Shown here piece after piece: positions 28,674 to 40,682 of a DNA stretch of 64,000 nt. Source of the stretch: Paludibacteraceae bacterium (GTDB lineage: Bacteria > Bacteroidota > Bacteroidia > Bacteroidales > Paludibacteraceae); assembly GCA_017630395.1 (NCBI GenBank), contig JAGBVI010000034.1, forward strand, positions 33,172 through 97,171, read 5' to 3'. Under the pieces are notes generated by a model that worked only from the letters and a program-made list of their open reading frames with translations, had not been told where the DNA came from and made no database searches. The stretch's first letter is position 1, and every line of letters starts with the position of its first letter. A program made the position numbers and the translations under genes.

Positions 28674-28702
28674 AAAAAAAGGACATACCCAAAAGCATGT
28701 CC
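28674..28702 (-). terminator. Terminator after rpsU
   Basis: GGACATGC and GTATGTCC pair over eight positions on the minus strand and are followed by seven T residues, 26 nt behind the rpsU stop. Confidence 0.85.
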
Positions 28703-28728
28703 CTATCTCATAAAGAAAACAGATTTTA

Positions 28729-28920
28729 TTATTCTTCAGATCTCTTAAGTTGTTGAACGTAGATTGCGTGAATCTTTTGTTGACGTTTAACAACAGAAGG
28801 TTTTTCAAATTGTTGTCTGCTACGCAATTCTTTAATAACACCTGTTTTTTCAAACTTTCTTTTAAATTTCTTCAAGGCTTTTTCTATATTTTCGCCTTCT
28901 TTTACCGGTACTACGATCAT
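28729..28920 (-). CDS. rpsU: 30S ribosomal protein S21 (63 aa)
   Basis: Small basic ribosomal protein. The sequence MIVVPVKEGENIEKALKKFK then RKFEKTGVIKELRSRQ is typical of S21, including the lysine/arginine-rich helix. It has its own promoter (28972-29002) and terminator. The leader between promoter and start is extremely A-rich on the sense strand, which may substitute for a Shine-Dalgarno sequence as is common for ribosomal genes in this phylum. Confidence 0.95.
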   Translation of the reverse strand: MIVVPVKEGENIEKALKKFKRKFEKTGVIKELRSRQQFEKPSVVKRQQKIHAIYVQQLKRSEE

Positions 28921-28971
28921 AATTTTTTTCTATTTTATTTTTTTTTTTTTATTTTATTTTAAAAGCGACTG

Positions 28972-29002
28972 CAAAAATAGACAATATTTTTTGATTCACA
29001 AA
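28972..29002 (-). promoter_or_regulatory. Promoter of rpsU
   Basis: Minus strand TTTG (29002-28999), 19 nt, TATTTTTG (28979-28972): exact -33/-7 match. The start is expected near 28965, giving a leader of about 45 nt of almost pure A with scattered T. Confidence 0.8.
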
Positions 29003-29038
29003 AAGTTTTTTCACATCTTTTTTATAAAATTCTACAAA

Positions 29039-29773
29039 TTAACATTTTTCCTTCTTTTTCTCTAATCGTCCTGCCGTGGTTGCTCCGGCTCTTTCTGCTC
29101 CTTGATAGAATCGCTCCCCCTCTTGGGTTGCCGTCTGAAAGGCTTCTGCCAACTCTTCTGCAGAGATGCCTCCCGCACTCATTCTCTCTTTCAATTGAGC
29201 AATGCTTTCTCCCGTCTTTCTGCTGATGACCTCCAACGGGTTGAACCCTGCATTAATCATCTGCATCAGATCCTGTCCCATCAATTTTCCGGATGCAGTG
29301 GCTTGCGAAAATGCCAATGCCAACGATTTCATCGTCTCTTTGTCTCCCAAGGCTATATCTCCGATGTTCTTCAACTTTTGAAAAGCAAAGTCGGCATCCA
29401 ACCCAAACGACATCATTGTTTTTTGTGCTTCCAAAAGAGAAGTACGGTCGTATGGGGTGGCAGAACCGTAGCGGGTTATGCTTTCGGAAAGGCGTTCTGC
29501 CGCCTCTGCATTGCCATTGAGCAAGGTAAGCAAATTGGTTTGCTGCTTCTCAAACTCCAATCCAGCTCCTGCCAAGCTCTGAAATACAGAGGAGACATTG
29601 CCAGCAAGTTCAAAGGATTGATTGACCAATATTAATCTTTCTGATATACGACTTATAAGACTTTCTGTTTTTTTTGCTTCTCCTCTGACCTCTTCAAATT
29701 GATTGGCTATGTTTGTTAAGGAGACAATAGCATTCCCTCCTATATTAATTTGAAAATCTACATCATTATTCAT
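29039..29773 (-). pseudogene. Phage tail tape measure protein, N-terminal fragment (244 aa)
   Basis: The sequence VDFQINIGGNAIVSLTNIAN, LEFEKQQTNLLTLLNGNAEAA, TPYDRTSLLEAQKTMMSFGL and SGKLMGQDLMQMINAGFNPL is that of the conserved N-terminal domain of phage tape measure proteins, which set tail length and are usually around 1000 residues or more. Here the frame ends after GRLEKKKEKC, so at least three quarters is missing. The start is the ATG 29773; the longer frame would use TTG. No tail, capsid, portal or integrase gene is nearby. This is a relic of a prophage tail operon that ran right to left. Confidence 0.8.
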
Positions 29774-29840
29774 AACCAAATATTTGCATTTTAAATTTTA
29801 ATTTTATACCTTGCTTTCGTTAACTTAAAGAATTACAATT

Positions 29841-30029
29841 ATGGAAACGCTGATTAATATATTTTTCCTGTTTATGGATTTTTTAACATGGTTGCTTCAT
29901 CAAGGAACTTGGGGAGTGATTGCATCCTTGGTGATAATGCTTTCACTATTTTGCCTTGGTGTTTATTTTTGGTATTGTATTGCCAAGTGGAGTTCCACCG
30001 GAAGATCATTGTGGTGGTTTAAAGATTAG
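29841..30029 (+). CDS. Small membrane protein, function unknown (62 aa)
   Basis: The sequence METLINIFFLFMDFLTWLLHQ, then GTWGVIASLVIMLSLFCLGV and YFWYCIAKWSS, gives two hydrophobic segments and a short basic, tryptophan-rich tail ending WWFKD. It is read against the direction of the phage fragments on either side, with 67 nt to the tape-measure start. No promoter or ribosome-binding site stands out. It could be a small phage-associated membrane protein or a later arrival. It could also be a chance frame, although the composition is convincingly protein-like. Confidence 0.4.
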   Translation: METLINIFFLFMDFLTWLLHQGTWGVIASLVIMLSLFCLGVYFWYCIAKWSSTGRSLWWFKD

Positions 30030-30036
30030 ATTCTTC

Positions 30037-30270
30037 CTATCCTTTCCCAGCCTCCATTTTCCTGATATGCTTCAATTGGGCAAATTTCTCTGCCCACTCT
30101 TCATCTGTAAGTTTTGCAGGGTCCAAGTGGAGGTAGTATTCCAAAAGGGTATTGATAAACCCTACCCAATTGGAATGCACATCACCCTCCGCCCTGCTTA
30201 CAAGTTTTTTACTTCCACCTGTTTTACCTTCACCAGTTGTTCCACCACACCTGCCGCTCCCAATAGATAG
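30037..30270 (-). pseudogene. Second prophage gene remnant upstream of the tape measure fragment
   Basis: A 77-codon open frame without ATG. It has a glycine-rich beginning (TTGEGKTGGSKKLVSRAEG) and a well-formed protein-like end: HSNWVGFINTLLEYYLHLD, then PAKLTDEEWAEKFAQLKHIR. An overlapping frame carries GRNRNYLLGAAGVVEQLVK with no stops, which suggests that a frameshift joined two parts of one gene. Genes of this size just upstream of the tape measure gene are often tail assembly chaperones, so that is the likeliest origin, unproven. Read in the same direction as the tape measure fragment. Confidence 0.5.
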
Positions 30271-30357
30271 TTACGATTACGACCTCTGCCCTATCTTACA
30301 AACAAAGATATTTACAAAGATATATTTACAACTGAGTCACAGCACAGCCGGAAATAC

Positions 30358-30456
30358 AAAAAAAATGGTCGGAATAAATCCAACCATTTCCTCGGTGCGA
30401 ACGCCCAAAGTGCTATGCTAAGGGAAAGTTGCGCCGACAGCCCATTTAAGGGACAC
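30358..30456 (-). ncRNA. Putative small RNA, copy B (about 99 nt)
   Basis: On the minus strand an exact promoter match (TTTG at 30493-30490, 19 nt, TATATTTG at 30470-30463) predicts a start near 30456. A strong terminator closes the unit: AATGGTTGGA pairs with TCCGACCATT at 30364-30388 and is followed by eight T residues. Between them lie a small 5' hairpin (CCC, loop TTAAAT, GGG) and a GC-rich core (GGCGCAAC, CCCTTAGC, GGGCGTTCGCACCG). There is no open frame with a start codon. A second copy lies 131 nt upstream with the same parts. Family not recognised. Confidence 0.6.
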
Positions 30457-30462
30457 GCTTAA

Positions 30463-30493
30463 CAAATATACAACAAATAATTGAAGTAACAAA
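30463..30493 (-). promoter_or_regulatory. Promoter of small RNA copy B
   Basis: TTTG, 19 nt, TATATTTG on the minus strand. The TTTG is formed by the end of the T run of copy A's terminator, so the two units are packed head to tail with no spare sequence. Confidence 0.65.
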
Positions 30494-30585
30494 AAATGGT
30501 CGGAACAAATCCAACCATTTCCTCGGTGCGAACGCCCAAAGTGCTACGCTAAGGGAAGTTGCGCCGATCCGCTCATTTAAGAGAC
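30491..30585 (-). ncRNA. Putative small RNA, copy A (about 95 nt)
   Basis: Same organisation as copy B: a -7 box (TACTTTTG, 30599-30592) with TTGC 19 nt upstream, a 5' hairpin (CTC, loop TTAAAT, GAG), the same GC-rich core with only a few differences, and the same terminator (stem at 30495-30519 followed by six T residues). The 5' hairpin differs from copy B by a compensatory change: the middle pair is U-A here and C-G in copy B. This supports selection on RNA structure rather than on protein or DNA sequence. The target or function is unknown. Confidence 0.6.
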
Positions 30586-30591
30586 TTATTG

Positions 30592-30622
30592 CAAAAGTAT
30601 AGGAAATAATTGAAATAAGCAA
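30592..30622 (-). promoter_or_regulatory. Promoter of small RNA copy A
   Basis: TTGC (30622-30619), 19 nt, TACTTTTG (30599-30592). The sequence between the boxes (TTATTTCAATTATTT) is nearly the same as in copy B (TTACTTCAATTATTT), so the promoter was duplicated with the RNA. Confidence 0.6.
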
Positions 30623-31000
30623 TTATCAAGTGTTTAAAACAAAAAAATAAAAATTCCGGAATACAGTTAGTTGGGGGTGCTTAAACCTTGTTAATGTTCT
30701 ATATTTGCAGGTGTGTAAATAGTACCAAATTCATTTAAATTAACACACTGAAAAACTAGCCCTTGTTAACATAGGCATCGAAGAGACATCCCTATTTATG
30801 TGCGTAAAGAACCAAAAGGGAATGCGAATGGGTTGGAAATGTATCATTCCTGATCGGAGAAGGCGGGAGCGAGTTTGCGGATAAAATCAAAGCGATAGAG
30901 AAATGAGAGAGAGAGAAAAGTTTCAGAGTAATAAAGGTATAATTCAAGCAGGATGAAAGATATAGATTTATCCGAAACATATCAAATTAACACGAAAATA
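30623..31000. other. Gene-free stretch between the small RNAs and the PorP terminator
   Basis: No intact gene. A short frame on the plus strand (VSFLIGEGGSEFADKIKAIEK, ending near 30905) looks protein-like but is only about 30 codons after an in-frame stop, possibly more prophage debris. An isolated -7-like TATATTTG lies at 30700-30707 on the plus strand. Confidence 0.3.
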
Positions 31001-31037
31001 AAAAAAATAGTAAAGACGGTACTCTGACCGTCTTTAC
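31001..31037 (-). terminator. Terminator of the PorP-OmpA-SprB-like operon
   Basis: On the minus strand GTAAAGACGGT and ACCGTCTTTAC form an 11-bp perfect stem with a 6-nt loop, followed by TATTTTTTT, 28 nt after the last stop codon of the operon. Confidence 0.9.
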
Positions 31038-31064
31038 CCAAATAACTTTAAAAATTTATGAATA

Positions 31065-31970
31065 CTAGAACTGCATAGACAACAAGATGTCATGCGTATT
31101 AGACGGCAAATTATTGCATCTACCTAAATTCATATTATAAGTATAACCAATTCTATATTTGTTCCACTCAAAACCTGCAGTGATAGCCAACAATGACATC
31201 TTAGCAGGGTTAGATAAATCGGGTTTCCATGTTACGCCACCCCAAATAAATTTATTGTAAAACAACATTGCGTTAACCTCGATATTATTGATTTTCCCCT
31301 TATGCATATAAGAGAGAGCCGGCGCAATATCGAAATGAGACGAAATAGGAAGTAAAGCACGACCATACAAATAGAAGTGACGACCCGACTTAAAAGTCGT
31401 AGAAGAGTCGTTCAACAAGTGTGTACAAGAGATACCAACCATCCAAATTTTGGAAGTAAGCTCAAAACCCAAATTAATATCCGGGGTAATCTCGGTTGTT
31501 TTATCTTGAACATAAGTTTCCATTCCATACTCAACCTCATCACGCATAGTATTGTTGGAAGGATTGAAATAGCCAAAATTCACACCTCCGGAAATACCCA
31601 TAGACAAAATATACTTTTCGCTCAAATCCAAGTGATAAGAATAGACAATTTGCGCATTGGTTGTGCTATGTCCTATACCTAAATGGTCATGAAAAACAGA
31701 TAAACCGAGACTCGACTTCAACTTTTCGCTATAACCGGAAAAGTTCAGCAAACCGGTTTTAGGTCCATTATCAACCCCAACCCATTGGAAACGCCCCAAG
31801 ACAAAGAGGTCGAATTTATCATTATTACCCGTACCAGCAGGGTTAACATTAATACGAGAAAACAGTTGTTGAGACATCATCAAATCTTGTTGAGCACTCA
31901 ACGTACAACAAAACAACAAGGACGATATAGAGAATATAACTGTTATAATATATCTATTTAATCTATTCAT
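31065..31970 (-). CDS. PorP/SprF family type IX secretion membrane protein (301 aa)
   Basis: Outer-membrane barrel of the kind that works with the T9SS to anchor or present type-B-sorted proteins such as SprB. A signal peptide ends near LSAQQ, followed by the family's opening DLMMSQQLFSRINVNPAGTG. It continues with FVLGRFQWVGVDNGPKTGLL, GLSVFHDHLGIGHSTTNAQI and the end NTHDILLSMQF, all typical of PorP/SprF. It is the last of three genes, 24 nt behind the OmpA-family gene. Family members are many per genome and each usually pairs with one giant adhesin, here the gene at 33424-38046. Which substrate it serves is inferred from that pairing. Confidence 0.88.
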   Translation of the reverse strand: MNRLNRYIITVIFSISSLLFCCTLSAQQDLMMSQQLFSRINVNPAGTGNNDKFDLFVLGRFQWVGVDNGPKTGLLNFSGYSEKLKSSLGLSVFHDHLGIGHSTTNAQIVYSYHLDLSEKYILSMGISGGVNFGYFNPSNNTMRDEVEYGMETYVQDKTTEITPDINLGFELTSKIWMVGISCTHLLNDSSTTFKSGRHFYLYGRALLPISSHFDIAPALSYMHKGKINNIEVNAMLFYNKFIWGGVTWKPDLSNPAKMSLLAITAGFEWNKYRIGYTYNMNLGRCNNLPSNTHDILLSMQF

Positions 31971-33423: not shown

Positions 33424-36400
33424 TTATTTCTTAAACACTTCAATTGTTCCTTTCACCTCTCTGCCATCTTTTAAGATTAAAGAGTAGATATAAACACCCG
33501 GATCAGCCAATTCTCCACGGAACATACCATCCCAACCATTATCAGAGTCGCTAACAACATCTCCATAACGATTATAAATGATTGTTCGATACCCCGGCAT
33601 AAAGTCATCATTAATTCCATCTGCAGTATGAGGAGTTATGACGGTTGGAATCTCAATATTATCAACCAAATTAGCAACAAGCGAGCCACTCGTAATGATC
33701 GGACAAGCACCATTGTCGGCCTTTACAAAATAAGTAACACTTGACGAAGGCATATCAGAAAATTGCAACTCATCAGTTATCGAAAGGATTTGTTCATTAC
33801 CCTGTTCATCGACAGAAATCCAGGAGAATGGACCAAAAACAAATGAAGATGTATCTACACTTAAATCAATATCCGCGCCATATTCAAAAATCTTATTCGA
33901 TGTACTCAATTCGATTTCAGCCGGTTTAGCCACCTGAACAAAGAACGAATCAGCCTCGGAATCTTGACATACACCATTTTTAGCAATAGCCCAAAGATTG
34001 GTTGAAGCATCCAATTTTACTTTTCGGACAGAATCTTTAGTTTCTACACCATCAAACCAAACATACAATTCAGGTCGACCCGATATAGGAGTAGCAGAAA
34101 GTGTGATGCTATCATTGCCCGTTTGGCAAATAGCCGACTTATCAGCATTTATAGAAATCGACATCAACTCTTTCACATCAACGGAAATTTCTTTTTTTAC
34201 AGACGGGCATTTATTGTATTTAGAAAGAGCAGTCAATGAATATTCGGATGATATAGTTGGCAAAACCTTTATTGTATCGGTAGTTGAGCCATCACTCCAC
34301 ATCAAAGAAGAAATCGACACATCTTTTGAATCAATATACAACGAAACTTCATTGGTTTCGTTTTCACAAATCACTGATTTAGAAGATTGGAGAGTAATAT
34401 CAATTGGGGAATCTATAACCAAACGAATAGTATCCGATTGAGCCGGACAACGACCGTACTTAGAAGTAGCCTTTAAAATATAATCAATAGAATCAGCCTC
34501 TACAATGTATACAGGAGAAGAATCCGTATTATTCCACAAGAAAGAACCAATAGCACCGGAAAGAACTTCAGCAGAGAATTGAACATCATCTCCGAAACAC
34601 AGCGTATCCTTATCTGACTTCAATGCAAAAGAAAGAGCCGGTTCAACAAAAATAGATTGTTTAAATTCGCTAACAACAACCGATTCATTTTCGATTGCCA
34701 TACGAATCACAGAGGTTTCATCTAATTTCAACACAAGAGTATCTTTGTTCTCGAACTCAGGAATCGCTTCAAACTCAGTTGCACTCTCTTTCTTAACAAA
34801 CCATCTCAAAGCATATCCTTCAGCAATTGTTCCAACACTCTCTTTATCGGCAATCAACGTTATAGCATCATCCAATGCACAGATAGAATCGGGCCAATTA
34901 ACAGGACGTAATGAATTCAATCTCAAAGCAACAATATTAGAAATTTGATTGCTTCCACAACCGGACTCTTGATTTTTCAAAAATTCAGCCAAATCCGCTT
35001 CTGAAACAGACGAAAGAACTCTGAAGTAAGACTCTTTCTTAAAATTAAGAGCAAAAATATTCTTTGACAATTCTGTTGTTGAAGGGACAATGGTTTCCCA
35101 ATTTATAGTATCCGAAGATACCTGATAAGCGAAGAATCTATCAAATTTATCGTCTGACGGAAGAGTAACGGTCAATAGAACGCTATCCGTTGTCAACGGG
35201 ATTTCGGTTAGTCCATCCACTCCGATTGTCAATTGAGGAGCGACACCACACTCTTCACCACCCACATAGAAGAATTTTTCGGCAACAACTCCACTACCAT
35301 CTTGAGTTGTCGCAGTCACTTTAACGAATCCTTCCGTAACGACCTTATTAGCGATTAAAACGCCATCGCTGGAAACTCTCGCCAATATCTCGTTATCAAT
35401 TGACCAAACCAAATCTTTAACAGTAGAATTTTGCGGATAAAAATCCGGAGTCAAGGTTAAACTATCCCCATGAGAGATGCAAGCACACCCCAAAATATTT
35501 AAATTCTCTATCAAGACAGGATCTTCCAAATAGATATAGATTGTGGTATCGTTTGAAATCACAAAAGTATCTCTATTATTTTCACCGTAGTGCAAGTAAT
35601 ATGAATAATTACCAGACTCACAGAACAACTCTACGACACCATTATCATCCGTATAATTAGTACTATAGAACGCACTATCTTTATTTACATCCAACAAAAT
35701 ATTTACTCCCGGATTTTTACTCTTTTCATACATTACGACATACTTAACATCATAAAGTTTAGTACCGGAAATAATATCAAAATTAAGATCGTAATCCTTC
35801 ACAATAAAGTCGCGCACAATATCCAAGATTCTAATTTGATAACGCCCCGGAACCAAATAATCCCTAATCTCTCCGGAAGAGTTTGTACGCAAAGAAGAGT
35901 GAGAAGCATCATCATAATCAGTTGTAGGCAATAAATTTCCATCCTCACCATACTTATAAATATTACCAAACACACCATTAACAAGATCCAAATTAGCATC
36001 TTTAATAGTAATGGTCACGCAACGCTTAACCGGCACCACAATGTATATTGTTGTATCGGGATTGAGAGGAGTTTTAATCGTAAACTTATTAGAATAGGTT
36101 CCATTATACTCATAATCCTTCAGGACATACTCAATAGTATAATCGTCCGGCACACAAATTGTCGGCTCAGAGAAGACCCAAGCCTCACCACTTGCTTGAT
36201 AATTTTCATAATGAGTAGAAACCGTTTTAGAATAAAGTTTACCATCCTTATCATACAGATTCATGCTCATAATTTGAGGATAAACCAACTTTCCATCATG
36301 CAAAAACTGAAATAAAACTTTCTGAGAAACAGAAGCCTTTGCTCTAAAAGTCAACGTTGTATCCGATCTCAATTCCACCCGTTGAGTGTCTCCCAAAACA

Positions 36401-38046
36401 GAAAACACATAGTCATCTTGCAAGAAACTACCGGAATATTTTCCTAAACTATCCGTAGTGATATCAGACATAAACAAAGCTGATTCAACATGCACATATT
36501 GACGAGATTCAAAAATCATTCCATTTATATCCAAAACGTTAATTTTGACGTTGTAATAAGGGGTTAACGTTATAGGGACACGCACCACCGAATCAGTTTC
36601 TGCCACTCTAAAAAAACCGCGATATCTCTGATTATAACCTTTTTCTGAAACATAGAAGGTAAAATTAAAAATACCACGAGGGCACAATACAGGTTTTTCA
36701 AATGAGAAAGTTCCATCAGGCATTGGTATTGGGAAATAAGACCAATTTCTTGTAACATCTTTATTGTTCCACAATACAACTTCAGAAATTGAAATTGGTT
36801 CAAATTTCTCTTCTCCGTAAAAGAAATCAAAATAAACCTCTGTAAAATCACTTCCATCCAAATAGAAATAGAGTGTTGTATCAGAGGTAACAGAGACCCC
36901 ATAAACCGTATCATTAAGAACGGCAACATCGTAAGCATAATCGGGTGTAACAAACCAACCTGCCCAACCACTGCCATCAGTCAAATTATACTTAGACTCC
37001 AACCCCTTCATCGGGTCCAACAAACTACATAGCACGTTCGGGATAGGAGTTATGCTATCCGATTTCATAAAAACTATTACATTAATCGAATAAGGAGTAC
37101 CGGGAGTCTCCTCTTCCGCAATACCCATCTCTTCTTCGACATCTTCTTCCTCTGTTTCTTCTTGAGAGCCGTCTACCGCAGGCAAATCAGGCAAAACAAT
37201 GTTGACAATATTTTTCACCAAGGCATCATTATCATCAACAATAAACGTATCAACAATTGTTCCATAATCCTTAGTTTCGACCGTACACGAGTATGTGCCG
37301 GCAGGACAAGAAACATAGTTATCTGTTGTATTATACAAGTAGTAACCATGAGCAACTACATTACTATGAGCATCAACAGCACCAAACAGATATAAACTAT
37401 CCGGTGCAATATGCGTCACCAAAATATCCTTCGCATATACATCAACCTTCTCTCCACTCTTCTTAACGAAAGAGAAGTGAGTCTGGTGAGTAATTTCTCC
37501 ACTCGTAACAATTACTGAAGAATTAATATTCTCATCATTCACCTCTATGGTCTCTGTTCCTCTAAACGTTGTATAGGTGTATCTACCCTTTGGCAAAACG
37601 AAGGTTGCTACTCCATTGACATCCGAAAACTTTTCACCGACATATGTCTTTTCCCCATCATCAGATAGTTTATGAATAGTAGCTTTTTTACCCTCAAGAA
37701 GAGTATTTGCATCATCTTTGAACGTAATAGTAACCGTTCGATAATCTAAATCAATCCAAACCCAATCGGACTTATGTATCGTAAAAGAACCGGTATTACA
37801 ATCACCGTAGTCAAATGAATAGGTATAATCTCCCTCCGGTATGGACATATCTACCAAACGCCCACTTGCATCCGTCTGATAATTTTTATACAATACTCCA
37901 TCCTTCTTGACATCAACAGACAAACCTGAAACAGGTTTATTCTTTACATCTGAAATTTCAAATATTAAAATACCCTGAGAATTCACACTGCTGATTTTAG
38001 CACAAAACAATAAAACCAGTACAAGAGTCTTAAAAAAGAACTTCAT
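33424..38046 (-). CDS. Giant surface protein with T9SS type B sorting domain, SprB-like (1540 aa)
   Basis: A signal peptide (MKFFFKTLVLVLLFCAKISS) is followed by about ten carboxypeptidase-regulatory-like/SpaA-type beta-sandwich repeats (for example KPVSGLSVDVKKDGVLYKNY, then DASGRL, recurring as DSSGE-type turns). Next is an acidic linker near residue 300 (QEETEEEDVEEEMG), a Big_2-like domain near residue 860, and several repeats with Cys pairs (ICENETNEVSLYI, CQTGNDSITLSATP). The C terminus, PTVITPHTADGINDDFMPGY to GTIEVFKK, is the gliding-motility-associated/T9SS type B sorting domain. It is therefore exported and probably held at the surface by the PorP-like partner. An adhesion or biofilm role is inferred; the window shows no gliding machinery beyond this triplet. 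Confidence 0.85.
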   Translation of the reverse strand: MKFFFKTLVLVLLFCAKISSVNSQGILIFEISDVKNKPVSGLSVDVKKDGVLYKNYQTDASGRLVDMSIPEGDYTYSFDYGDCNTGSFTIHKSDWVWIDLDYRTVTITFKDDANTLLEGKKATIHKLSDDGEKTYVGEKFSDVNGVATFVLPKGRYTYTTFRGTETIEVNDENINSSVIVTSGEITHQTHFSFVKKSGEKVDVYAKDILVTHIAPDSLYLFGAVDAHSNVVAHGYYLYNTTDNYVSCPAGTYSCTVETKDYGTIVDTFIVDDNDALVKNIVNIVLPDLPAVDGSQEETEEEDVEEEMGIAEEETPGTPYSINVIVFMKSDSITPIPNVLCSLLDPMKGLESKYNLTDGSGWAGWFVTPDYAYDVAVLNDTVYGVSVTSDTTLYFYLDGSDFTEVYFDFFYGEEKFEPISISEVVLWNNKDVTRNWSYFPIPMPDGTFSFEKPVLCPRGIFNFTFYVSEKGYNQRYRGFFRVAETDSVVRVPITLTPYYNVKINVLDINGMIFESRQYVHVESALFMSDITTDSLGKYSGSFLQDDYVFSVLGDTQRVELRSDTTLTFRAKASVSQKVLFQFLHDGKLVYPQIMSMNLYDKDGKLYSKTVSTHYENYQASGEAWVFSEPTICVPDDYTIEYVLKDYEYNGTYSNKFTIKTPLNPDTTIYIVVPVKRCVTITIKDANLDLVNGVFGNIYKYGEDGNLLPTTDYDDASHSSLRTNSSGEIRDYLVPGRYQIRILDIVRDFIVKDYDLNFDIISGTKLYDVKYVVMYEKSKNPGVNILLDVNKDSAFYSTNYTDDNGVVELFCESGNYSYYLHYGENNRDTFVISNDTTIYIYLEDPVLIENLNILGCACISHGDSLTLTPDFYPQNSTVKDLVWSIDNEILARVSSDGVLIANKVVTEGFVKVTATTQDGSGVVAEKFFYVGGEECGVAPQLTIGVDGLTEIPLTTDSVLLTVTLPSDDKFDRFFAYQVSSDTINWETIVPSTTELSKNIFALNFKKESYFRVLSSVSEADLAEFLKNQESGCGSNQISNIVALRLNSLRPVNWPDSICALDDAITLIADKESVGTIAEGYALRWFVKKESATEFEAIPEFENKDTLVLKLDETSVIRMAIENESVVVSEFKQSIFVEPALSFALKSDKDTLCFGDDVQFSAEVLSGAIGSFLWNNTDSSPVYIVEADSIDYILKATSKYGRCPAQSDTIRLVIDSPIDITLQSSKSVICENETNEVSLYIDSKDVSISSLMWSDGSTTDTIKVLPTISSEYSLTALSKYNKCPSVKKEISVDVKELMSISINADKSAICQTGNDSITLSATPISGRPELYVWFDGVETKDSVRKVKLDASTNLWAIAKNGVCQDSEADSFFVQVAKPAEIELSTSNKIFEYGADIDLSVDTSSFVFGPFSWISVDEQGNEQILSITDELQFSDMPSSSVTYFVKADNGACPIITSGSLVANLVDNIEIPTVITPHTADGINDDFMPGYRTIIYNRYGDVVSDSDNGWDGMFRGELADPGVYIYSLILKDGREVKGTIEVFKK

Positions 38047-39584: not shown

Positions 39585-40682
39585 TTATTCCAGTTTATCG
39601 TTAAACTTTTTGAGCGATACGACAATCAACATGAGAGTCATACCCGCCAATATCAAACAATTTTTCCACACGTCAAGGAGCGACAGTCCTTGGATCATCA
39701 TTTTACGAATAGCATCTATGTACCAACGTGCAGGGACGATATTTGAGACTACCTGAAAGAAAGTTGGCAAATTTTCAATCGGGAACAACATTCCGGACAA
39801 CATCAAAATAGGCATCATCATCACCATGGCAGAAATAAGTAGAGCTGCTACCTGCGTTTCTGCAATCGTAGAGATAAGCAGTCCTAAAGAGAGGGATAGC
39901 ACCAAATATAGCAGCGAGAGGAGAAAAATTCCCCCAACTCCACCAGACATAGGTACATCAAGCAAATAACGCGCCAACAAGAGGATCAATATCAAGACAA
40001 TGCAAGATATCAAAAAGTAGGGAATCATTTTAGCAAAAATGATTTTAAAGGGTCTGACAGGCGAGACCAACAAGACCTCCATTGTCCCAACCTCTTTTTC
40101 TCTGACAATAGAGACTGAAGTCATCATTGCACACACCAAAATAAAGACAAGTCCCATAATTCCCGGTACAAAATTGTAGGCCGATTTCATTTGCGGATTA
40201 AACAACAACCTTGTCTCAAACAACATTTGTTGCGAAGCCTTATCTAACAAAACATTTTGCAAATAGAGTGTAGCAGAGCCGGCCGTATTTACATTGGAGG
40301 CATCAACAATGATTTGAATGATAGGTTTCACCGGAATTCCATTCAAGGAATGCGCCAGATATCGATCAAAATCTTTATCGAAGACAACCACTGCCCCCAC
40401 TTTACCGGAACGCAAATATTTATCTATCTCCGAATTGTCGATATAGCCAATGAAAGAAAAATAGTTATTACGAGCCATCTTATCGACAGCCTCCTCTACT
40501 CCATCGGTTCTATTAGGCGCCACCACAGCAACATTAACGTTGTTTACTTCGGTTGAAATAGCAAATCCAAATAAAACCATTAACAAAATGGGAATACACA
40601 TAACAATAAGCATTGTTCTCGTATCCCTTATAATATGTAATGACTCCTTCTTAACGAAGGCAAAAAAATTACTAAATCCCAT
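39585..40682 (-). CDS. ABC-2 type transporter permease, first of two (365 aa)
   Basis: YbhS-like permease with the same plan as its neighbour: N-terminal segment (MLIVMCIPILLMVLFGFAIS), extracytoplasmic domain, five C-terminal segments and the ABC-2 motif SIVREKEVGTMEVLLVSPVR. The ATG 40682 directly follows the ATPase stop codon by one nucleotide; the longer frame would start with GTG inside the ATPase gene. With its partner, the two ATPases, the HlyD-type adaptor and the TolC-type channel it forms a complete envelope-spanning exporter. The substrate is unknown; relatives export drugs, cations or cholate-like compounds. Confidence 0.88.
   Translation of the reverse strand: MGFSNFFAFVKKESLHIIRDTRTMLIVMCIPILLMVLFGFAISTEVNNVNVAVVAPNRTDGVEEAVDKMARNNYFSFIGYIDNSEIDKYLRSGKVGAVVVFDKDFDRYLAHSLNGIPVKPIIQIIVDASNVNTAGSATLYLQNVLLDKASQQMLFETRLLFNPQMKSAYNFVPGIMGLVFILVCAMMTSVSIVREKEVGTMEVLLVSPVRPFKIIFAKMIPYFLISCIVLILILLLARYLLDVPMSGGVGGIFLLSLLYLVLSLSLGLLISTIAETQVAALLISAMVMMMPILMLSGMLFPIENLPTFFQVVSNIVPARWYIDAIRKMMIQGLSLLDVWKNCLILAGMTLMLIVVSLKKFNDKLE

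Follow-up and report, generated by a model that had tools for sequence, protein, structure and literature searches.

Whether the short stretch of DNA that lies between phage-tail debris and the gene of a PorP membrane protein in a Paludibacteraceae bacterium encodes small RNAs (sRNAs), and how such RNAs could act, is the question raised by the locus described here. The junction, in which rpsU, the phage debris, the RNA pair and PorP follow each other (28700-31100), belongs to a window of 64,000 nt, i.e. the whole stretch of DNA that was analysed, taken from contig JAGBVI010000034.1 of assembly GCA_017630395.1; all positions given in the following are those of the window. The source genome is indicated as G000, and a genome of the same genus, that of Bacteroidales MAG SIG111, as G120. 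To our knowledge, few trans-acting RNAs have been worked out in Bacteroidota outside Bacteroides.

The reading that is preferred, with about as much belief as doubt, is that of two paralogous intergenic sRNA genes, the products of which would likely act by base pairing with mRNAs. Each unit would have a Bacteroidota-type promoter of its own and yield an RNA of approximately 95-100 nt, in which a short 5' hairpin with UUAAAU in its loop is followed by a core stem-loop and an intrinsic terminator; pairing with mRNAs would involve the pyrimidine stretch UUCCCUUAGC and the 5' part, which varies between the copies. From the sequence and the comparison of two genomes we infer the gene pair and its limits; transcription, targets and mode of action are predictions. 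Base pairing is taken, with moderate confidence, as the likeliest mode, the main rival being a core that would bind a protein.

Layout, promoters and short frames

The two units lie on the minus strand, where unit A (approximately 30588-30489) comes first in the 5' to 3' direction and is followed, head to tail and with a spacing of 131 nt, by unit B (approximately 30458-30358). These are the two direct copies of the sequence-only reading, found at the place it had given: their 3' 67 nt are 97% identical and a 27-nt part of their promoters is 78% identical. Tandem Repeats Finder reported no repeat at 29000-31500. The predicted transcript of unit A (30489-30588, minus strand) would start at approximately 30585-30588, and its 3' end would lie within the T run, close to 30490; that of unit B (30358-30458, minus strand) would start at approximately 30456-30458. 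Judged by sequence, each unit has its own promoter and intrinsic terminator and holds no conserved protein frame, as found in intergenic sRNA genes, and the two paralogous copies are each a complete predicted transcription unit, as found in sibling sRNAs.

The promoter consensus TAnnTTTG, preceded by TTG, is of the Bacteroidota type. In promoter A (30592-30622, minus strand), read from the sequence and from a motif scan, the -33 TTG is found at 30622-30620 and the -7 element TACTTTTG at 30599-30592, with the spacing TTG-N20-TACTTTTG. In promoter B (30463-30492, minus strand), read from the sequence and from the scans, the -33 TTG (30492-30490) overlaps the T run of terminator A, and the -7 element TATATTTG is at 30470-30463 (TTG-N19-TATATTTG). 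Across the 64-kb window, TTG-N18-21-TAnnTTTG occurs 14 times on the minus strand and four times on the other, the expectation derived from ten first-order Markov runs being 6.5; the motif is by itself not rare. A sigma-70-type scan of the region returned two promoter-like sites versus 2.8 expected, one of which is promoter B; promoter A is absent from its results. An additional promoter-like TTG-N18-21-TAnnTTTG is present at 30310-30331, just downstream of unit B, and is directed into the phage debris.

It had been stated that neither unit contains a frame with a start codon. This proved wrong: the ATG within the conserved TTAAATG opens a 10-codon frame in both, encoding MSGSAQLPLA in unit A (30544-30576, minus strand, from 30576) and MGCRRNFPLA in unit B (30413-30445, minus strand, from 30445). 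Because the peptides differ between the units, the frames do not resemble genes, and each is probably not a gene. A leader or dual-function RNA, in which translation of a 10-codon peptide from the ATG of the UUAAAU loop would set the fold of the core and terminator, is the least credible of the readings considered. Both copies do retain the loop ATG and a TAG after ten codons, in spite of two indels that shift the middle of the frame; however, besides the difference between MGCRRNFPLA and MSGSAQLPLA, the middle of the frame is conserved as nucleotides rather than as codons, and the overlap of terminator A with promoter B leaves no room for a gene in between.

Predicted fold and terminators

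In the predicted fold of each unit, a small hairpin at the 5' end precedes a core stem-loop with interruptions and a terminator of 13 pairs. On the minus strand, the 5' hairpin of unit A (30571-30585; stem CUC/GAG, loop UUAAAU) is followed by its core stem-loop (30524-30566) and by the terminator hairpin (30492-30522), which leads into a T run; in unit B, the predicted 5' hairpin (30440-30454; stem CCC/GGG, loop UUAAAU) precedes the core stem-loop (30393-30436), which contains the pyrimidine stretch CUUUCCCUUAGC, and the terminator hairpin (30361-30391), again leading into a T run. The fold energies are -35.9 kcal/mol for unit B (z -3.2) and -33.4 kcal/mol for unit A (z -2.5), each being matched by 1 of 200 shuffles; minus its terminator, unit B has an unremarkable fold (z -1.3; 23 of 200 shuffles as good). 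Terminator B is found in both the fold and the terminator scan of the region, being one of the two terminator-like sites returned by the latter (0.9 expected), and terminator A is found in the fold only and is not among the consensus-scan sites. Predicted terminators are present in both units, as the sequence-only reading had it, but not with the 10-bp stem it described, the stem having 13 pairs in the fold and, for B, 15 in the scan.

The same reading had pointed to a compensatory change in the 5' hairpin, which is indeed found where it was placed (C30451-G30442 in B, U30582-A30573 in A). The change is one event only, in a stem of three base pairs; the energy of the hairpin is -1.7 kcal/mol in A and -3.8 kcal/mol in B, and either change alone would weaken it, to -0.8 and 0.0 kcal/mol. 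A chance estimate made by hand for two random differences in a 15-nt hairpin falling on the partners of one of four pairs is approximately 4/105. Outside the tail, variation in the core is confined to four columns of alignment A4 (11, 12, 22 and 63), each of which is predicted to be unpaired, in a loop; under random placement such an arrangement would have a probability of approximately 1%, by hand, the structure being predicted from the same sequences. No further covarying pair appears among the three distinct sequences, in which all 26 core and terminator pairs are invariant; invariant pairs neither support nor oppose the structure. The proposed selection on RNA structure is weakly favoured, by the one covarying pair and by the core changes that fall in predicted loops.

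Since it is the core and the terminator, and not the 5' end, that are conserved between the paralogs, an RNA that binds a protein through its core stem-loop, as a sponge or in a 6S-like manner, with two copies raising the dose, would fit equally, and it is regarded as a tentative possibility. The degree of identity between core and terminator of the two units, as compared with that of the promoter part, is in keeping with it, as is the retention of all the pairs, but high paralog identity may also stem from gene conversion, and the length of approximately 100 nt and the lack of a match to 6S or to any other Rfam family speak against it.

Conservation between two genomes

The limits of the two units are best seen in the comparison of G000 with G120. 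From promoter A to terminator B (30358-30622), only two substitutions are found in 265 positions, both in unit A, with one more T in each T run of G120. Promoter A is identical at 34 of 34 positions (30589-30622) and promoter B at 31 of 31 (30458-30488); unit A is identical at 98 of 100 aligned positions, with one extra T, and unit B at 100 of 100 (30358-30457), also with one extra T. The intergenic DNA upstream (30623-31008) carries 44 substitutions in 325 positions, in addition to 61 gapped positions (Fisher test versus the pair, 3.5e-10), and fourfold sites of three adjacent genes differ at 111 of 906 (Fisher test versus the pair, 6e-11). Downstream (29800-30357), only 47 positions can be aligned, 42 of which are identical, with 511 gapped columns. 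As the edges of the conserved stretch coincide with promoter A and terminator B and both flanks are diverged, constraint on the predicted transcription units is suggested.

Low divergence alone is not rare in the alignment of these genomes: 68 of 378 windows of 265 nt, including those over the pair, are no more diverged than the RNA pair. Among them is a patch of the adhesin-like gene (33424-38046), in which the stretch 35518-35922 shows no difference between G000 and G120, unlike its surroundings; such a patch makes local recombination likely, and this stretch is perhaps the result of a recent event. That recombination can erase differences, as this nearby unchanged coding stretch indicates, is in line with a neutral, functionless tandem duplication or mobile repeat, as is the presence of the pair in few genomes of the genus (2 of 16). 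This reading is nevertheless very unlikely, because BLAST gives one locus per carrier genome and because conservation starts and stops at promoter A and terminator B, between diverged flanks.

Distribution of the RNA pair

The covariance search against Rfam that had been proposed places neither unit in a family: at the gathering score (4227 families), only tRNAs were matched in the window and in the G120 locus, the RNA pair remaining unmatched, and at E up to 5 there were five matches, all far below their own gathering scores. Together with the conservation edges between the two genomes, this supports the idea of a tandem small RNA gene outside known families, in which each copy has a promoter and a terminator.

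Within the genus, 2 of 16 genomes, namely G000 and G120, carry the RNA pair, at the same locus and, by BLAST, at one locus in each. A pattern of the exact core, run on a genome collection (84,980 species by its own description), matched one contig only, of Bacteroidales isolate SIG111. BLAST against 150 genomes of the family matched 10, two of which carry the RNA; the matches in the other eight (11 loci, four of them in one genome; four loci read) span 24-38 nt and cover promoter or terminator only. Against 393 genomes of the order and 395 of the class, two overlapping samples to which G120 does not belong, BLAST returned the source genome only.

A covariance model of the RNA, R1, was built from four near-identical copies, so that a diverged homologue could be missed by sequence searches. 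In the 16 genomes of the genus it gave 21 matches at E up to 1, four of which are the units themselves. Among the other 17, 15 loci were re-searched, with 10 alignments shown, and 11 loci were read: four were the 3' ends of tRNA-Asp followed by a terminator (according to ARAGORN), and most others were terminators. Two loci, L062 (30.6 bits) and L072 (24.9 bits), match part of the core with broken pairs and were not taken as homologues. With stricter filters, R1 gave 14 matches at E up to 0.005 in 358 genomes of the family, i.e. the four units, two loci already seen in the genus, with L062 among the matches other than the units, and eight new ones, of which L118, L120, L122 and L124 are tRNA ends with a terminator and L119, L121, L123 and L125 are terminators. 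The matches to tRNA ends led to the consideration of a tRNA relic as the origin of the RNA, which was dropped because the terminator supplies much of the R1 score.

Going by these searches, the pair looks real and appears to be narrowly distributed and lineage-specific. No description of it came up in the literature searches made, papers not being searchable by sequence. The case indicates that two close genomes can be enough to mark out an sRNA gene that is absent from the Rfam library.

The phage neighbourhood

From the position of the pair next to prophage debris, it had been suggested that it may have arrived with the phage or may control it, or that a defence RNA is a possible role. The debris (30263-29061) is 92% identical to positions 1194-2396 of a viral contig, L083, and corresponds to a 1.2-kb internal fragment of a tail module, in which the end of a small frame and the beginning of a tape measure gene are found. 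It lies on the same strand as the RNA pair, and its outer end is 95 nt from terminator B. Near 30210, at the end of the small frame, it contains A AAA AAC, which resembles a -1 frameshift site. Arrival with the phage, control of it and a role in defence are not supported, given an internal tail-gene fragment that ends at such a distance from terminator B and the lack of a convincing match to the RNA in the viral, phage or plasmid sequences described below.

The surroundings of the junction were compared across the genus. In 13 other genomes of the genus (14 loci, 420 nt displayed), the DNA upstream of rpsU looks different by eye, so that, among the genomes seen, the junction is particular to G000 and G120. 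R1 found nothing upstream of rpsU in 15 loci, one being that of G000 itself, which stops short of the units. Downstream of PorP, no gene family is common to more than three of the loci examined (15 of 16, that of G000 being left aside), and, at the limit set, G152 gave no match to XerD. The RNA may have come with the rearrangement that produced the junction, with no tie to the phage being seen.

A regulatory or defence RNA borne by a phage, and left behind as a remnant of the prophage, is unlikely. It would account for the pair lying on the same strand as the tail-gene debris it adjoins and for a junction that is unlike the DNA upstream of rpsU in the other genomes of the genus, and a Bacteroides FopS sequence has been seen in a phage (PMC11697453). 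However, the debris derives from the middle of the tail module, and at the point where it ends L083 has an open frame (960-1259, without a Pfam match) and gives no match to R1. R1 gave nothing convincing in 35 viral loci whose tape measure genes are related, the best match being L116 with 18.7 bits and an E of 0.11; exact-pattern scans of the viral collection gave zero matches, and the phage and plasmid collections contain no match to the RNA. Furthermore, G120 is devoid of approximately 780 bp of the debris of G000, its copy extending from 29532 to the same inner end, yet its RNA is nearly unchanged. The link of the RNA pair to the phage is, overall, weak.

Candidate targets and protein partners

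Sibling sRNAs usually pair with mRNAs, and base pairing remains the mode of action favoured here. The parts of the RNAs that are candidates for pairing are the pyrimidine stretch UUCCCUUAGC, predicted to be single-stranded in part, and the UCYCUUAAAU of the 5' hairpin, both of which could base-pair with start regions rich in purines. In this lineage few genes have a Shine-Dalgarno-like sequence: among genes of at least 120 codons, 3 of 36 in the window and 9 of 94 in loci L044-L058. Bacteroidia ribosomes are reported to fail to recognise Shine-Dalgarno sequences (PMC9976891).

A search for duplexes between the 38 start regions of the window and the two RNAs (76 duplexes, restricted to the window and scored without a shuffle control) gave the top scores to hpf with unit B (-33.5) and to nusG with unit A (-29.8), followed by a gene at 40682 that has no Shine-Dalgarno-like sequence (-29.6), over a background with a mean of -17.9 and a standard deviation of 5.6; hpf with unit A reached -23.3. 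The start regions of the neighbouring genes are unremarkable (PorP, -16.4/-14.2; OmpA, -11.7/-11.2; the adhesin-like gene, -18.8/-18.7). The net gain on cofolding is -16.5 for the combination of hpf and B and -15.7 for that of nusG and A, as compared with -6.8 to -10.9 for two further genes. The start regions of nusG (25127) and hpf (27459; S30AE family of Pfam) hold Shine-Dalgarno-like sequences of the kind that is rare in the lineage.

The exact 10-mer complement, GCTAAGGGAA, is not enriched: outside the locus it occurs once in G000 and twice in G120, as compared with seven and eight occurrences of the reversed control. It falls inside an open frame in G000 and, in G120, inside the matching open frame and in an apparent CRISPR spacer. 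The latter belongs to an apparent CRISPR array on the minus strand of locus L132 (C20 of G120), approximately at its position 437, one spacer of which holds GCTAAGGGAA, probably by chance. Among the start regions of the window and the exact complements, there is no convincing target.

As to helper proteins, Hfq (PF17209) was found in neither of the two carrier genomes, with five of 14 controls being positive, and RRM_1 (PF00076) was likewise found in neither, with two of 14 controls positive, including Bacteroides ihuae. No known partner is, therefore, on hand in G000 or G120 for an RNA that would act by binding a protein. A more specific proposal, according to which the units would be twin regulators that act independently of Hfq and RRM proteins and use the repeated UCYCUUA motif to pick the few mRNAs bearing a Shine-Dalgarno sequence (e.g. 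nusG and the ribosome-hibernation-type gene hpf, a few kilobases away), is a long shot. A sharply conserved pair of siblings in genomes in which Hfq and RRM_1 are not detected would be a clean system in which to study sRNA action without known helpers.

Comparison with known systems

The LhrC sibling sRNAs of Listeria reportedly exist in several near-identical copies, with pyrimidine-rich stretches able to mask ribosome-binding sites. The present pair differs in that it belongs to another phylum, to a lineage in which Shine-Dalgarno-like sequences are rare, and in that no target was found for it.

The FopS RNAs of B. thetaiotaomicron are described in PMC11697453, in which the promoters are named sigma-ABfr; the likeness consists of paralogous sRNAs, canonical promoters of this type and an intrinsic terminator. 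According to the same source, FopS has 14 members of approximately 65-70 nt, which share a single-stranded 5' seed and are bound by the RNA-binding protein RbpB, whereas the present pair comprises two tandem copies of approximately 100 nt, with variable 5' ends, a shared structured core and no RRM_1 protein found. FopS is not among the five Rfam matches obtained up to E 5; the authors report that its consensus has been deposited, and the copy of the library used may lack the model. Given that the searches for Hfq and RRM_1 gave no hit in either carrier genome, the arrangement of FopS and RbpB is not transferable as it stands.

A further likeness in kind is with the strain-specific sRNAs of B. 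thetaiotaomicron (PMC7366714), which are likewise intergenic, with their own promoter, an intrinsic terminator and a narrow distribution, and which account for 27 of the 49 high-confidence intergenic sRNAs reported there. Those sRNAs were found by RNA-seq, whereas the pair is known from its DNA alone and is likened to them by kind. Seen in this light, the two units, which fall in no Rfam family, look like real members of an ordinary, narrowly distributed kind of sRNA that is common in the transcriptome of B. thetaiotaomicron (PMC7366714).
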